A stretch of 64,000 nt of DNA from Rhodospirillaceae bacterium SYSU D60007 (GTDB taxonomy: Bacteria > Pseudomonadota > Alphaproteobacteria > Reyranellales > Reyranellaceae), in contig QOCQ01000011.1 in NCBI GenBank assembly GCA_003574685.1, positions 62,001-126,000 on the forward strand, written 5' to 3'. The translations under genes were made by a program, and so were the position numbers. The notes under the pieces are model-generated. The model searched no databases. It saw only the letters and a list, made by a program, of their open reading frames with translations, and was not told where the DNA came from. Below, one piece after another: positions 28,073-35,443 of the stretch; position 1 is the stretch's first letter, and every line of letters starts with the position of its first letter.

Positions 28073-28281
28073 CGTCCGCGAACCCCAATCTTCACGGCAG
28101 GATTGCACCGCCGGGTGATGCCGGCAAGGCGCGCCACGTTACCGCACCGCTGCCGCCCGGCGATTCCGCGCCGCGAACACCCCGGCCAGCCAGCCTTGCC
28201 CGGCAGGGCGCGGCTGCTAGTATCCGCCGAAATCGATCCGGGCGCTACGTGCCATCATGCCGGCGCCACCGGGAGGAGTTC

Positions 28282-29478
<1,197 letters not shown>

Positions 29479-29490
29479 GGAGTAAGGCGG

Positions 29491-30633
29491 ATGGATCTGT
29501 CGTATTCGGACGAACAGAAGCAGATCAAGGAAGGCGTCGAACGCTTCGTACGGGAGCAGTACGCGTTCGAGACCCGGCGCAAGATCGCCGCCACCGATCG
29601 CGGCTGGCTGCCCGAGAACTGGGCGAAGTTCGCCGAGCTGGGCTGGCTCGGCATGTCGTTCAGCGAGGACGATGGCGGCTTCGGCGGCGGCATGGTGGAA
29701 ACCGCGATCCTGATGGAAGCCTTCGGCAGCGGACTCGTCCTGGAGCCCTGGCTTCCGACTGTCGTGCTGGGCGGCGGCCTGCTGGCCGCCGGCGGCAACG
29801 CGGCGCAGAAGGAAGCGCTGCTGGCGCCGATGATCGCCGGCGAGAAGCAGTTCGCCGTCGCCTGGGTCGAGAAGCAGTCGCGCTACAATCTGGCGGACGT
29901 GGCTGTGACCGCGAAGCGCAATGGCAGCGGCTTCACGGTCTCCGGCCACAAGGGCGTGGTCTACAACGCCGCCTCGGCCGACACGATCTTCGTGACGGCG
30001 CGTACCGCCGGCGGCCAGCGCGACGAGAAGGGCATCACCGTCTTCGCCGTCGATGCCAGATCCAAAGGCATCACCCGACGCGACTATCCGACCCAGGACG
30101 CGCTGCGCGCCTCAGAGGTGACGTTCGACAACGTCAGCGTTGGCAGCGACGCCGTGGTCGGGCAGGTCGATAACGGCCTGGCGCTGTTCGAGGACACGAT
30201 CGATCGCGCCATCGTGGCCGTGTGCGCCGAGGCCGTCGGCTGCATGGATGCGCTCAACAAGCAGACGCTGGAGTACATCAAGACGCGCAAGCAGTTCGGC
30301 GTGCCAATCGGCAAGTTCCAGGTGCTGCAGCATCGCATGGTCGACTGCTTCACCAACGCCCAGGAAGCGCGCTCCATGACCCTCATGGCGACGCTGAAGA
30401 TCGACGATGCCGATGCCGTCACACGCAAGAAGGCCGCGTCCGGCGCCAAGGTTCAGATCGGCAAGTCCGGCAAGTTCATCGGCCAGAGCGCCGTGCAGAT
30501 GCATGGCGGCATGGGCGTCACCGACGAGCTGTCGGTCAGCCACTACTTCAAGCGGCTGACGATGATCGACACCATGTTCGGCAGCCCGCAGCATCATCTG
30601 ACGCGCTATGGCAGCCTGTCGATGGCGGCCTGA
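29491..30633 (+). CDS. Acyl-CoA dehydrogenase, PimD-like small subunit
   Basis: A 380-residue ACAD of the PimD type, starting MDLSYSDEQKQIKEGVERFV. The C-terminal domain includes LEYIKTRKQFGVPIGKFQVL and GQSAVQMHGGMGVTDELSVS, both standard for the family. The pairing with a PimC-like gene suggests a heteromeric ACAD, as in pimeloyl-CoA and steroid side-chain (FadE-pair) systems, where active sites form between unlike subunits. Which subunit holds the catalytic base cannot be settled by eye. A hairpin terminator follows. Confidence 0.92.
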   Translation: MDLSYSDEQKQIKEGVERFVREQYAFETRRKIAATDRGWLPENWAKFAELGWLGMSFSEDDGGFGGGMVETAILMEAFGSGLVLEPWLPTVVLGGGLLAAGGNAAQKEALLAPMIAGEKQFAVAWVEKQSRYNLADVAVTAKRNGSGFTVSGHKGVVYNAASADTIFVTARTAGGQRDEKGITVFAVDARSKGITRRDYPTQDALRASEVTFDNVSVGSDAVVGQVDNGLALFEDTIDRAIVAVCAEAVGCMDALNKQTLEYIKTRKQFGVPIGKFQVLQHRMVDCFTNAQEARSMTLMATLKIDDADAVTRKKAASGAKVQIGKSGKFIGQSAVQMHGGMGVTDELSVSHYFKRLTMIDTMFGSPQHHLTRYGSLSMAA

Positions 30634-30643
30634 GCCACTTCGC

Positions 30644-30667
30644 AAGCCCGGCCGTCGCGCCGGGCTT
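30644..30667 (+). terminator. Hairpin after the PimD-like gene
   Basis: A 9-bp perfect stem, AAGCCCGGC/GCCGGGCTT, with a 6-base loop, 10 bases after the stop codon. Only a weak T-rich tract (CGTGTTT) follows, so termination may be partial. Confidence 0.55.
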
Positions 30668-30689
30668 CGTGTTTGAGCAGTACGTTGAG

Positions 30690-30701
30690 TGTGATTTCAC
30701 A
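30690..30701. promoter_or_regulatory. Operator-like palindrome TGTGATTTCACA
   Basis: TGTGA and TCACA half-sites are separated by two bases, in the 185-base gap before the HMGS-like gene. The half-sites match Crp half-sites, but the spacing (2 rather than 6) does not. A TetR- or GntR-type operator is possible. Confidence 0.3.
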
Positions 30702-30818
30702 TCCCGGAAACCATGTCCGCCGCGCGGGGCGGGGTGGCAAAATCGCAGTCGCACGACGCCCGTCGCGGGACTAAGGTAAATCAACGTTCACGAAGTCATT
30801 TTCGGAGGGATTCGGCGA

Positions 30819-32261
30819 ATGGTCGGCATCACGGCTTTCGGTGCCTATGTTCCGAGGCTCCGCCTGAATCGTCAGGCTGTCTACGACGCCAACAAGTGGT
30901 TCGCACCCGGCCTGCGCGGCCAGGCCAAGGGCGAACGCGCCATGGCGAACTGGGACGAGGATTCCGTCACGATGGCCGTAGAGGCGGCACGCGACTGTCT
31001 CAACGGCACGGATCCCAAGAGCCTGAAGAACCTGTTCTTCGCCTCGACCACGCATCCCTTCAAGGATCGCCAGAACGCGGGCGTCATCGGCACGGCCCTG
31101 ACGGTCGAGCAAGGCCTTATGGCTGCCGATATCGGCGGTTCGCAGAAGGCAGGCACCTCGGCCCTGATCGCCGGCCTCAATGCCGCCATGTCCGGTGCGC
31201 CGACCATGGTAACCGCCGCCGACAAGCGGCTGGCACGCGTCGCCTCGGCCTACGAGCTGCAATATGGCGACGGTGCTGCGGCGCTGATGCTGGGCACCGA
31301 CAAAGTGATCGCGAAGCTGCTGGGGAGCCGCTCCGTGTCGATGGATTTCGTCGACCATTTCCGCGGCGATGAGTCGGATTTCGACTACGGCTGGGAGGAG
31401 CGGTGGATCCGCGATGAGGGCTACACGAAGATCGTGCCGCCCGCGATCAAGGAAGCGCTCGGTGCCTTCGGGTTGAAGGCAGCCGACATCAGCCATTTCA
31501 TCATGCCGAGCCTCATGGCTGCCGTGCCGAAGCAGATGGCCAAGCTGGCCGGGATTCCCGAAACGGCCGTCCGCGACCTGCTGAACGCCAACCTCGGCGA
31601 CACCGGCACGGCGCATGCCCTTGTCATGCTGGTCGACGCACTGGAGAACGCAAAGGCCGGGGACAAGATCCTCGTGATCGGCTTCGGCCAGGGCGTCGAT
31701 ATCGTGGCCTTCGAGGTCACCGCCGAACTCGGCAAGCTCGGCAAGCGCATGGGCCTTTCGGGCTGGCTGGCGCGCCGCAAGGAGGAGAAGAACTACCTCA
31801 AGTTCCTCGCCTTCAACGAGATGCTGCCCATCGAGAAGGGCATGCGGGCCGAATTCGACAAGAAGACGGCGCTGTCGATCCTGTGGCGCAAGCGCGACAT
31901 GATCTACGGGCTGGTCGGCGGCAAGTGCCGGGTCTGCGGTACCGTGCAGTTCCCCAAGAGCCAGGTGTGCGTCAATCCCAACTGCCACGCCATGGACAGC
32001 CAGGACGACTATCCGATGGCCGGCCTCGAGGCCTCCATCATGTCGTTCACGGCCGACTCGCTGACCTACTCGCCGGACCCGCCGGCCTATTACGGCATGA
32101 TCACCTTCCCCGAGGGCGGCCGCTTCATGGCCGACTTCACCGACTGCGACAAGGACCAGGTCAAGGTTGGGGCAAAAATGCGCATGACGTTCCGCATCCG
32201 CGACAACGACACCATGCGCGGCGGCTTCAAGCGCTACTTCTGGAAGGCGGCGCCGGCCTGA
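30819..32261 (+). CDS. HMG-CoA-synthase-fold protein fused to DUF35 zinc-ribbon/OB domain, catalytic triad apparently lost
   Basis: 480 residues. Residues 1-300 have the thiolase/HMG-CoA-synthase fold (MVGITAFGAYVPRLRLNR; YGDGAAALMLG; IGFGQGVDIVAFEV). Residues 365-475 are a DUF35 domain: a zinc ribbon with Cys370, Cys373, Cys384 and Cys389, then an OB-fold. Against remembered archaeal HMGS motifs (SESHP, FACKAGT, FHQP) this protein has STTHP, GSQKAGT and FIMP. The catalytic Glu, Cys and His would thus be Thr77, Gln109 and Ile228. It probably does not condense acyl-CoA by the usual route. It may act as scaffold or acyl-CoA channel, or as a decarboxylase/lyase like Cys-to-Gln KSQ domains. GGAGGGA at 30804-30810 supports the ATG. 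The adjacent thiolase is the likely partner. Confidence 0.85.
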   Translation: MVGITAFGAYVPRLRLNRQAVYDANKWFAPGLRGQAKGERAMANWDEDSVTMAVEAARDCLNGTDPKSLKNLFFASTTHPFKDRQNAGVIGTALTVEQGLMAADIGGSQKAGTSALIAGLNAAMSGAPTMVTAADKRLARVASAYELQYGDGAAALMLGTDKVIAKLLGSRSVSMDFVDHFRGDESDFDYGWEERWIRDEGYTKIVPPAIKEALGAFGLKAADISHFIMPSLMAAVPKQMAKLAGIPETAVRDLLNANLGDTGTAHALVMLVDALENAKAGDKILVIGFGQGVDIVAFEVTAELGKLGKRMGLSGWLARRKEEKNYLKFLAFNEMLPIEKGMRAEFDKKTALSILWRKRDMIYGLVGGKCRVCGTVQFPKSQVCVNPNCHAMDSQDDYPMAGLEASIMSFTADSLTYSPDPPAYYGMITFPEGGRFMADFTDCDKDQVKVGAKMRMTFRIRDNDTMRGGFKRYFWKAAPA

Positions 32262-32325: not shown

Positions 32326-33528
32326 ATGGCCAAAGGTATCAAGGACAAGGTCGCCATCCTCGGCATGGGCTGCTCGAAATTTGGCGAGCGCTGGGACAGC
32401 GGCGCCGAGGAGCTGATGCTCGAGGCGTTCAAGGAGTGCGTATCCGACTCCGGAATCGACAAGAAGCAGATCCAGGCGGCCTGGTTCTCGACTGCGATCG
32501 ACGAGGTGCATGTCGGCAAATCCGGCATTCCGCTGTCAACGACGCTGCGCCTGCCCAACATTCCCGTCACGCACGTCGAGAACATGTGCGCCTCGGGCAC
32601 CGAGGCGTTCCGCGGCGCCTGCTATGCCGTGGCCTCCGGTGCGGTCGACTTCGCCCTGGCGCTGGGCGTGGAGAAGCTGAAGGATACCGGTTACGGCGGT
32701 CTGCCGGGCGGGCGCGGTGCCCCGCTGCAGCAGCTCTGGAATGCCAACGGCACGGCGCCGGGCAATTTCGCCCAGCTCGCCTCGGCCTACATGGCCGCGC
32801 ACGACGTCAAGTATGACGACCTGAAGCGCGCCATCGGCCATGTCTCGTGGAAGAGCCACCAGAACGGCGCCAAGAACCCCAAGGCCCACCTCCAGAAGGC
32901 GGTGGAAATGGACACGATCCTGAACGCGCCGATGATCGCGGCACCCCTGGGTCTGTTCGACTGCTGCGGCGTGTCGGATGGCGCGGCAGCGGCCATCGTG
33001 ACGACGCCGGAAATCGCCAAGTCGCTGGGCAAGCATGACCTGATCAGCGTCAAGGCGCTGCAACTCGCCGTGTCCAACGGTTCGGAGTCGGGCCACAATT
33101 CGTGGGACGGCAGCTACTTCCACACCACGCGGATCGCCTCGAAGCGCGCCTACGAGGAGGCGGGCATCAAGAATCCGCGCGAGGAAGTCTCGATGTTCGA
33201 AGTGCACGACTGCTTCTCGGTCACCGAGCTGGTGACGATGGAGGACCTGCATATCTCCGAAACCGGCAAGGGCTGGAAGGACGTGCTCGACGGCTTCTAC
33301 GATGCCGACGGCAAGATCCCCTGCCAGATCGATGGCGGCCTGAAGTGCTTCGGCCATCCGATCGGCGCCTCCGGCCTGCGCATGCTCTATGAGATGTATC
33401 TGCAGCTCCAGGGCCGCGCCGGCTCGCGCCAGCTCAAGGACCCGCGAATCGGCATGACGCACAATCTGGGCGGCGCGCCGCGCGAGAACGTGTCGTCGGT
33501 TTCGATCATCGGCCGGCTGGACGCTTAA
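32326..33528 (+). CDS. SCP-x-like thiolase / acetyl-CoA acetyltransferase family protein
   Basis: A 400-residue thiolase of the SCP2/SCP-x type. The nucleophile Cys88 lies in VENMCASGTEAFRGA. His294 lies in EVHDCFSVTEL and His344 in GGLKCFGHPIGASG. The second active-site cysteine of classical thiolases is replaced by Asn380 (MTHNLGGA), as is usual in SCP-x-like members. It should cleave a beta-keto acyl-CoA, or with a DUF35 partner act on a branched substrate. The upstream HMGS-fold/DUF35 protein suggests a thiolase-DUF35 complex like those of archaeal mevalonate synthesis, BbsAB and the Ltp2-ChsH2 retro-aldolase. A strong terminator follows. Confidence 0.92.
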   Translation: MAKGIKDKVAILGMGCSKFGERWDSGAEELMLEAFKECVSDSGIDKKQIQAAWFSTAIDEVHVGKSGIPLSTTLRLPNIPVTHVENMCASGTEAFRGACYAVASGAVDFALALGVEKLKDTGYGGLPGGRGAPLQQLWNANGTAPGNFAQLASAYMAAHDVKYDDLKRAIGHVSWKSHQNGAKNPKAHLQKAVEMDTILNAPMIAAPLGLFDCCGVSDGAAAAIVTTPEIAKSLGKHDLISVKALQLAVSNGSESGHNSWDGSYFHTTRIASKRAYEEAGIKNPREEVSMFEVHDCFSVTELVTMEDLHISETGKGWKDVLDGFYDADGKIPCQIDGGLKCFGHPIGASGLRMLYEMYLQLQGRAGSRQLKDPRIGMTHNLGGAPRENVSSVSIIGRLDA

Positions 33529-33538
33529 AGCTCTCACG

Positions 33539-33575
33539 AAGCCGCCCGGTTCCACCAGGAGCCGGGCGGTTTTGT
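33539..33575 (+). terminator. Rho-independent terminator after the thiolase gene
   Basis: An 8-bp GC stem, CCGCCCGG (33542-33549) / CCGGGCGG (33562-33569), extended by A-T pairs, is followed by TTTTGTTTTT. It separates the thiolase from the MaoC pair. Confidence 0.85.
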
Positions 33576-33615: not shown

Positions 33616-34080
33616 ATGCTCGACAAAAAACATATCGGCCACACCTTCAAGCCGTTCACGACCACGGTCGAGGCCGGCAAGATCCGGTTGTTCTGCAAGG
33701 CAATCGGCGAAGAGAACCCGATCTATCACGACGAGGCGGCCGCGAAGGCCGCCGGCTATCGCGCCATTCCGGCGCCCGTCACCTTCCTCACCGCCATTAC
33801 CAACGACGATCCCGACAAGGGCGGCCTGCTGCGCCTGCTGGGAGTCGACATCGGTCTGATCCTGCACGGCGAACAGCATTACGAATATCTCGCGCCCGTG
33901 CATGTCGGCGATCGCATCACCTGCCAGGCGCGGGTGGTGGACATCTACGACAAGAAGGGCGGCGCTCTCTGGTTCGTGGTGTCGGAGGTCGACCTCAAGG
34001 AAGCCGGCTCAGGCAAGCCTGTTGCGAAGGCGCGCAGCGTGACGGTCGTGCGCAATCCCGATGCGGCGAAGAAGGCGTAA
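33616..34080 (+). CDS. MaoC-like N-terminal (FAS1-type) hot-dog protein, non-catalytic partner
   Basis: A 154-residue hot-dog protein similar to the N-terminal half of fungal FAS/MaoC dehydratases. At the hydratase site it has GEENPIYHDEAAA: the Asp and His of the GDxNPIH motif are Glu32 and Tyr37. It therefore should not catalyse hydration alone. The next gene encodes a MaoC with both residues intact. Such pairs form heteromeric enoyl-CoA hydratases in steroid side-chain degradation (ChsH1-ChsH2-like). The start ATG at 33616 is downstream of GGAGGCAACG. Confidence 0.88.
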   Translation: MLDKKHIGHTFKPFTTTVEAGKIRLFCKAIGEENPIYHDEAAAKAAGYRAIPAPVTFLTAITNDDPDKGGLLRLLGVDIGLILHGEQHYEYLAPVHVGDRITCQARVVDIYDKKGGALWFVVSEVDLKEAGSGKPVAKARSVTVVRNPDAAKKA

Positions 34081-34090
34081 GGAGGCAAGC

Positions 34091-34513
34091 ATGGCAAACG
34101 CACCGAAATTCGCCGATGTGAAGGTGGGCGACGAGCTGCCGCCGCTGAAGCTGCCGCCAGTCACCCGCCACCAGCTCGCGCTCTATTGCGGCGGCTCAGG
34201 CGATCACAACCCGATCCATGTAGACATCGACTTTGCGAAGAAGTTCGGATTCAAGGACGTCTTCGCGCACGGCATGCTGTCGATGGCCTTCCTCGGCCGG
34301 CTCGCCACCTCCTGGGTACCGCAGGCGCAGGTCCGCAAGCTCGGCACGCGCTTCACGGCGATCACCTGGGTGGGCGACCAGATCACGGTCTCGGGCAAGG
34401 TGACCGGCAAGCGTGAGGAGAACGGCGAGAAGCTGGTCGACCTCGAAGTGAAGTGCACCAACCAGAACGGCCAGAACACGCTCGAGGGCAGCGCGACGGT
34501 GGCGCTGGCATAA
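34091..34513 (+). CDS. MaoC-family enoyl-CoA hydratase (catalytic subunit)
   Basis: A 140-residue single hot-dog hydratase. The catalytic Asp38 and His43 lie in GGSGDHNPIHVDIDFAKKFG, followed by the AHGM segment that completes the site. It should add water across a 2-enoyl-CoA. It starts 10 bases after the non-catalytic partner, with GGAGG at 34081-34085, consistent with equal production of two subunits. The SDR downstream would oxidise the 3-hydroxyacyl-CoA product. Confidence 0.93.
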   Translation: MANAPKFADVKVGDELPPLKLPPVTRHQLALYCGGSGDHNPIHVDIDFAKKFGFKDVFAHGMLSMAFLGRLATSWVPQAQVRKLGTRFTAITWVGDQITVSGKVTGKREENGEKLVDLEVKCTNQNGQNTLEGSATVALA

Positions 34514-34558: not shown

Positions 34559-35383
34559 ATGGGTCAACTCGACGGGCGGGTTGCCATCGTCACCGGCTCG
34601 GGCCGCGGCATCGGCCAGGAAATCGCGTTCCGGCTGGTTCGCGACGGCGCGAAGGTGGTGGTCAACGACATTGACGAGGCGCCGGCCAAGGAGACGATCG
34701 CCGCCATCGAGAAGATGGGCGGCAAGGCGGTGGCCTGCAACGGCGACGTGGCAGCCAAGGATTTCGGCGACCGCATCGTCAAGACCGCCGTTGACGCGTT
34801 CGGCGGCTGCCACATCGTGGTGAACAACGCCGGCTACACCTGGGACAGCGTCATCCAGAAGATGACCGACGAGCAGTGGTACGCCATCCTCGATGTCCAC
34901 CTGACGGCGCCGTTCCGCATCCTGCGTGCCTTCCAGCAGCATTTCCGCCAGGCTGTCGAGAAGGAGCGCTCGGCTGGCCAGCGCATCGTGCGCAAGGTGG
35001 TCAACATCTCCTCGACCTCGGGCGTCAACGGCAACGCCGGCCAGTCGAATTACTCGGCAGGCAAGGCCGGTATCGTCGGCCTGACGAAGACCCTGGCCAA
35101 GGAGTTCGGCCGCTACGACGTCACGGTCAACGCGGTGGCGTTCGGCTACATCCAGACCCGGCTCACCAAGCCCCTGAGCGAAGGCGAGGCCGGCGAGATC
35201 GAGGTGCAGGGCCGCAAGGTGAAGATTGGCGTGCAGGGCGGCCGCATCGCTGCCATGAACCAGATGATCCCGCTGGGCCGCGGCGGCCTGCCGGAAGAAG
35301 CGGCGGGTTCCGTCTACCTCTTCTGCAGCCCCGACAGCGACTACGTCAGCGGCCAATGCCTCGTCGTGAACGGCGGCTTGTGA
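34559..35383 (+). CDS. Short-chain dehydrogenase, 3-hydroxyacyl-CoA dehydrogenase-like
   Basis: A 274-residue classical SDR. The cofactor motif TGSGRGIG is near residues 12-19 and VVNDID ends beta-2 with an Asp that favours NAD(H). NNAG is near residue 90. Catalytic Ser is in NISSTSG, and Tyr-Lys are in YSAGK. A longer loop after the active site (KPLSEGEAGEIEVQGRKVKI) resembles multifunctional-enzyme-type hydroxyacyl-CoA dehydrogenases. The order MaoC, MaoC, SDR gives hydration then oxidation to the beta-keto acyl-CoA that the upstream thiolase would cleave. A strong terminator follows. Confidence 0.93.
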   Translation: MGQLDGRVAIVTGSGRGIGQEIAFRLVRDGAKVVVNDIDEAPAKETIAAIEKMGGKAVACNGDVAAKDFGDRIVKTAVDAFGGCHIVVNNAGYTWDSVIQKMTDEQWYAILDVHLTAPFRILRAFQQHFRQAVEKERSAGQRIVRKVVNISSTSGVNGNAGQSNYSAGKAGIVGLTKTLAKEFGRYDVTVNAVAFGYIQTRLTKPLSEGEAGEIEVQGRKVKIGVQGGRIAAMNQMIPLGRGGLPEEAAGSVYLFCSPDSDYVSGQCLVVNGGL

Positions 35384-35410
35384 GCGCTGCCCTCAGGAAC
35401 AAAGCCTGCG

Positions 35411-35443
35411 AACGCCGCCGGTCGTATCCCGGCGGCGTTTTTC
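35411..35443 (+). terminator. Rho-independent terminator after the SDR gene
   Basis: An 11-bp stem, AACGCCGCCGG / CCGGCGGCGTT, with a 7-base loop is followed by TTTTTCTTT. It closes the catabolic cluster and may also serve the convergent SMR-like gene. Confidence 0.9.

Follow-up and report, generated by a model that had tools for sequence, protein, structure and literature searches.

Three solved complexes combine a thiolase, a subunit with the fold of HMG-CoA synthase (HMGS) and a DUF35 protein. The archaeal acetoacetyl-CoA thiolase/HMGS/DUF35 complex (6esq, 6et9) consists of three separate proteins of the mevalonate pathway, and its HMGS is active (Glu82, Cys114). In PhlACB (5m3k, 5mg5, 9skh), encoded by three separate genes of an antibiotic pathway, PhlA has an active thiolase-fold subunit and a DUF35 protein as partners, and the complex C-acylates phloroglucinols without CoA. 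PhlA was called an inactive member of the thiolase superfamily in 2010 (PMC2954200), and a 2018 paper with crystal structures reported that it lacks the HMGS Cys and Glu and that the chemistry is performed by PhlC only (PMC6392133); all three subunits are needed for function (PMC6392133; PMC12955522). MucABC of Streptococcus macacae (9vbo, 9vbt), from the streptococcal muc system making 3-acetylated tetramates, likewise combines DUF35 and thiolase-fold partners with an HMGS-like A subunit devoid of the triad, all as separate subunits. Furthermore, DUF35 domains dock on catabolic thiolase-fold aldolases (PMC12329534). Such docking, linked to catabolic C-C cleavage, is seen in ChsH2-Ltp2, Shy-Sal and BbsAB. 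These complexes have no HMGS-like domain, and their DUF35 is either joined to a MaoC hydratase or a free-standing protein; Sal and Ltp2 are aldolases.

The window analysed here, a stretch of 64,000 nucleotides, carries a gene for an HMGS-fold protein fused to DUF35 (hereafter HD), followed by a thiolase gene (THL). The pair shares with PhlACB an HMGS-like part without Cys and Glu, a DUF35 composed of zinc ribbon and OB-fold (fused in HD), and a thiolase with nucleophile Cys and GHP His (C88 and H344 in THL). The triad-less HMGS partner of an active thiolase is therefore a known idea, with PhlA as its precedent, and the preliminary description of this locus was wrong to take the loss of one partner's chemistry as new. 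A literature search, thin on subscription journals, found no published account of the fused form or of its catabolic spread. The fused, catabolic and widespread version of the dead-HMGS thiolase partner thus appears undescribed.

Domain architecture and active-site positions of HD

The ORF of 480 aa is genuine, and its features are as follows:

30819..32261, + strand: HD, HMGS-fold and DUF35 fusion protein, 480 aa (Pfam, NCBIfam, phmmer; AlphaFold2 pTM 0.83; VIA-align Z 40.7 to 6esq_I)
30819..31733, + strand: HMGS/KASIII-like fold, residues 1-305, without catalytic triad (phmmer and MAFFT; NCBIfam HMGS equivalogs below cut-off)
31047..31049, + strand: T77 codon at the HMGS Glu position; Thr in 48/52 fused members (alignments)
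31143..31145, + strand: Q109 codon at the position of the HMGS nucleophile Cys; Q/L/R/M/T/S/P/A/G, never Cys (alignments)
31506..31508, + strand: P230 codon at the HMGS catalytic His position; replaces the earlier assignment to I228 (31500-31502) (phmmer, MAFFT)
31599..31601, + strand: D261 codon at the KASIII/HMGS Asn position; GNTY changed to GDTG (alignments)
31734..31904, + strand: linker, residues 306-362 (AlphaFold2 model, fusion alignment)
31908..31991, + strand: rubredoxin-like zinc ribbon of DUF35 with C370, C373, C384 and C389, PF12172 (Pfam)
32016..32195, + strand: OB-fold of DUF35, PF01796 (Pfam)

The fusion itself, already recognized in the preliminary description, was borne out by Pfam, NCBIfam and the structure match. 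PF08541 (KASIII C-terminal), PF12172 (ChsH2-type zinc ribbon) and PF01796 (OB) all score above their gathering cut-offs, DUF35 spanning about residues 364-459, and the four zinc cysteines are all present, as had been claimed. The archaeal HMGS models TIGR00748 and NF003274 match residues 1-304 (E 8.5e-53 and 1.1e-35), but their scores lie under the curated equivalog cut-offs (179.6 versus 244 and 123.5 versus 353.35 bits, respectively).

Active-site positions were mapped on the HMGS of M. thermolithotrophicus (6esq_I). T77 and Q109 fall in the HMGS Glu and Cys columns in two independent alignments (phmmer to 6esq_I; MAFFT). The third position is different from the one initially proposed: in both phmmer and MAFFT, the strand DYDYCVFHQP of the reference aligns ungapped with D223-I-S-H-F-I-M-P-S-L of HD, which places the His at P230. 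Hence, of the Thr-Gln-Ile set read by eye in place of Glu-Cys-His, T77 and Q109 hold, whereas I228 resulted from anchoring on the wrong proline. HD lacks all four HMGS/KASIII catalytic residues, with T77, Q109, P230 and D261 at the Glu, Cys, His and Asn sites. PhlA and MucA carry Gln at the catalytic His column, and the residues of PhlA at the lost catalytic positions differ from those of HD. Elsewhere in the domain, the D46-E47-D48 motif is common to HMGS and PhlA, and residues 189-201 form a strongly conserved motif, DYGWEERW-R.

The AlphaFold2 monomer model of HD has a pTM of 0.83 and a mean pLDDT of 79. Its top PDB matches in VIA-align are 6esq_I (Z 40.7) and 6et9_I (40.5) of the archaeal complex, which has the same three folds, followed by 9skh_A/5mg5_A/5m3k_A of PhlACB (39.5-38.5), which are also the best phmmer matches to HD, and by 9vbt and 9vbo of MucABC (35.9 and 35.8), remote in sequence. 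All other HMGS/FabH structures score at most 34.4, and Foldseek agrees. Thus, among solved structures HD most resembles the HMGS-like subunits of the three thiolase/HMGS-like/DUF35 complexes introduced above. In the monomer model the linker stretch 338-362 is disordered, though R343 and R357 are invariant in the fusions. We propose that this stretch could contact the thiolase, on the model of PhlB, whose N-terminal tail is buried (PMC6392133).

Loss of the triad across the fusion family

The Glu site is occupied by Thr in 99 of about 100 HD homologues aligned with MAFFT (down to 39% identity). Residues at the Cys site are more diverse (Q51 L41 M4 R3 S1 in 100 homologues), and Leu is found even in close Reyranellaceae. 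Since about 100 homologues down to this identity likewise lack Glu and Cys, a sequencing artefact can be excluded. A wider set comprised 52 diverged aligned fusions from Proteobacteria, Actinobacteria and haloarchaea, the last two from plasmid records only. Here, too, Glu is missing from its site (T48 S2 G1 A1), Cys occurs in none of the members (Gln in 30; also Thr, Pro, Ala and Gly), and the His site is Pro in 40 and His in 3. No fusion with an intact triad was present among these 52 members. The Q109 column ranks among the less conserved sites of the domain (63rd percentile of entropy), and at least nine residues are used there. Because the loss is common to fusions across lineages, it is a family trait, and Gln has not been selected as such. 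As for homologues with the same residue set, a search proposed at the outset, Thr is near-constant, Gln is variable and the His column is mostly Pro.

In the tree of N-terminal domains, all bacterial fusions lie on one side of a branch (92/96), with the HD clade at 81/89, and PhlA is nearer HMGS than HD (94/79). The tree favours separate losses of the triad in the HD and PhlA lineages, although a single triad-less clade uniting the two was not rejected by the AU test (p-AU 0.217).

The three fusions with His (L126, L164 and L171) are diverged members that have lost Cys and Glu and are possible intermediates of decay. If these columns are correctly aligned, the triad may have decayed stepwise, a few lineages still keeping His after Cys and Glu were gone. 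The zinc ribbon is variable as well: a minority of HD homologues (L118, L119, L121, L131-L135, also L165, L126 and L171) have other residues in place of several or all zinc cysteines of DUF35, for example TGTVQYPRTRISVAPN. Judging from these alignments, the ribbon seems to persist without zinc in this minority.

The partner thiolase and the gene context

The neighbourhood of HD forms a cluster on the same strand, in the order two acyl-CoA dehydrogenases, HD, THL, two MaoC subunits and a short-chain dehydrogenase (SDR):

28279..29478, + strand: acyl-CoA dehydrogenase, large-subunit type; closest PDB 4x28_A and 6wy9/6wy8 Tcur3483 (Pfam, NCBIfam, PDB search)
29491..30633, + strand: acyl-CoA dehydrogenase, small-subunit type, pimD-like (Pfam, NCBIfam)
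32326..33528, + strand: THL, SCP2/archaeal-type thiolase, PRK06157 family (Pfam, NCBIfam, alignments)
33536..33575, + strand: terminator-like hairpin of 18 pairs and a T run, directly after THL
33616..34080, + strand: MaoC-type hydratase, HadA/FAS1_DH-like subunit (Pfam, NCBIfam)
34061..34513, + strand: MaoC-type hydratase, HadB-like subunit (Pfam, NCBIfam)
34559..35383, + strand: short-chain dehydrogenase, FabG-like, probable 3-hydroxyacyl-CoA dehydrogenase (Pfam, NCBIfam)
35410-35440: terminator-like hairpin after the SDR gene

THL belongs to PRK06157 (NF004810; 696 bits versus a cut-off of 403), and its catalytic residues are intact: the nucleophile C88, H294-D-C296-F, C341-F-G-H344 and H379. 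This confirms the initial reading of the gene after HD as a thiolase with its nucleophile kept. Apart from gaps, the 78 partner thiolases show no variation in the C88, HDCF, CFGH and HN motifs, each of which is found in 76-78 of them. The HD and PRK06157 families are present in the identical 11 of 397 Pseudomonadota genomes sampled; the chance of this exact co-occurrence, about 1e-21, ignores relatedness and is an indication only. In 11 of the 13 pairs the two genes lie no more than 140 bp apart, and the remaining two pairs are on different contigs; in some genomes HD and THL lie a few genes apart. Reyranellaceae carry a second PRK06157 copy (L175 7128-8339, L176, L179), about 70% identical to the THL of the window and located directly after a cytochrome P450 gene with no HD beside it. 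This copy may function by itself or together with the single HD in trans.

Since the hairpin immediately follows THL, the HD-THL pair may be its own transcription unit within the longer cluster. A gap of 185 bp (30633-30819) separates HD from the acyl-CoA dehydrogenase genes and suggests a separate transcription start; a simple promoter scan found no forward promoter in it. We take 4x28_A and Tcur3483, the closest structures to the large-type dehydrogenase, to be steroid-type heteromeric enzymes. In both dehydrogenases of the cluster the classical Y-E-G-T glutamate is, by eye, replaced by Gly (YGGSNE and MFGSPQ). If this reading is right, the catalytic base of both subunits must be elsewhere.

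Genes of beta-oxidation enzymes adjoin HD in nearly all the contexts seen, together with CoA-transferases, CoA ligases and ring-attacking oxygenases. The exact substrate could not be deduced from neighbouring genes, because the contexts differ between lineages (estrogen edc-like, dioxygenase, CoA-transferase and Rieske clusters). Where genomes are streamlined, HD and THL are found among housekeeping genes with no evident beta-oxidation cluster. An aminoglycoside-phosphotransferase-like kinase and a DUF6285 protein are encoded a few genes from HD-THL in L118, L119, L121 and L066, including genomes of 1.4-1.7 Mb; this could be a relic of ancestral gene order or a sign that the functions are linked (4-hydroxyacyl-CoA kinase-like). 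In the genome of the window, HMG-CoA reductase (PF00368) is absent and Dxr of the MEP pathway is present. A mevalonate role of HD was therefore ruled out, and HMG-CoA is not its product.

Function of the HD-THL pair

Collectively, these data make it probable that HD is a dead HMGS-fold subunit with DUF35 that forms an obligate complex with THL, serving as scaffold and cavity wall of a degradative thiolase for bulky 3-ketoacyl-CoAs. HD and THL would assemble like the archaeal complex and PhlACB, with the fused DUF35 docked on the thiolase and holding the two thiolase-fold dimers to each other. The pocket of the HMGS part, now emptied, would face the shared CoA site as a wall of the cavity or as extra room for the acyl chain, not as an active site, and all bond chemistry would be performed by THL through C88. 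THL would cleave 3-ketoacyl-CoAs with CoA in the closing step of a beta-oxidation round, after the heteromeric acyl-CoA dehydrogenase, the MaoC hydratase pair and the SDR; its substrates are probably acyl-CoAs that are bulky or derive from rings. One suggestion of the preliminary description, that of a dead synthase retained as a scaffold next to an active thiolase, is supported by the sequence comparisons. Several points count against such a role: the separated HD and THL genes of some genomes, the lone second thiolase in Reyranella, the streamlined contexts and the loss of zinc cysteines in a minority of homologues.

The other suggestion made at the outset, a KSQ-type decarboxylase or lyase, did not find support. 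In a KSQ-like enzyme the Gln would stabilise an enolate during decarboxylation of a malonyl-type CoA, and Gln is indeed found at the Cys site of HD and of 30 of the 52 fusions. However, the same site also accepts Leu (41 of 100 homologues), Met, Arg, Ser, Thr, Pro, Ala or Gly, the catalytic His is P230 in HD (Pro in 40 and His in 3 of 52), and no PKS or ACP genes occur in the gene context of HD, which renders this function very improbable. HD is almost certainly not a genuine HMG-CoA synthase whose catalytic residues have moved within the pocket: the NCBIfam HMGS models do match, but below their curated cut-offs, Glu, Cys and His are absent, and the genome has no HMG-CoA reductase. The direction of the reaction is also worth considering, since the closest structures belong to biosynthetic or acyl-transfer complexes, and HD-THL might work likewise, as PhlACB or the archaeal acetoacetyl-CoA thiolase does. 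Yet the surrounding genes encode acyl-CoA dehydrogenases, hydratases, SDRs, CoA-transferases and CoA ligases, one such setting being an estrogen-degradation cluster, with neither PKS nor mevalonate pathway, and we regard a biosynthetic direction as improbable.

The near-invariance of T77 could reflect a residual function. Together with the strongly conserved motif at 189-201, it argues for HD as an active second enzyme with a new pocket chemistry, based on T77 and K/R110 or on conserved motifs such as DYGWEERW-R. On the other hand, every known HMGS/KASIII catalytic position is altered, with free variation at three of the four, the conservation may be structural, as D46-E47-D48 is common to HMGS and PhlA, and the PhlA precedent needs no such chemistry; HD is thus unlikely to be a second enzyme. 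A broader possibility, to which we give limited though not negligible weight, is that the emptied pocket is an active second chamber, which would hold or re-orient bulky or ring-derived acyl chains or have its own T77-dependent chemistry. The fused dead-HMGS/DUF35 proteins of Proteobacteria, Actinobacteria and haloarchaea would then mark a separate class of two-chamber catabolic thiolases.

If HD is a scaffold, as we favour, HMGS partners that have lost their chemistry extend well beyond PhlACB and make up a broad family in catabolism. The names given to such proteins in databases (HMG-CoA synthase, beta-ketoacyl synthase, 'OB-fold protein') imply an anabolic reaction and fit catabolic pathways badly; a scaffold role would call for co-expression of HD with THL. 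Exactly such a misfit between anabolic name and catabolic pathway was met in the literature on estrogen degradation. In the edc operon of Novosphingobium tardaugens, the 'HMG-CoA synthase' EGO55_13555 was left without a role; the authors noted that a condensation makes no sense at its pathway position and suggested a thiolase-like activity (PMC7793797). The HD-THL pair of Novosphingobium sp. ES2-1 (L158), whose HD homologue is triad-less and about 31% identical, is part of a cluster whose gene order matches this operon. EGO55_13555 has the same gene order as in ES2-1, from which we infer its membership in the HD family, and a dead HMGS scaffold serving the thiolase next to it, as one half of a thiolase complex, offers an answer to the role of this gene.
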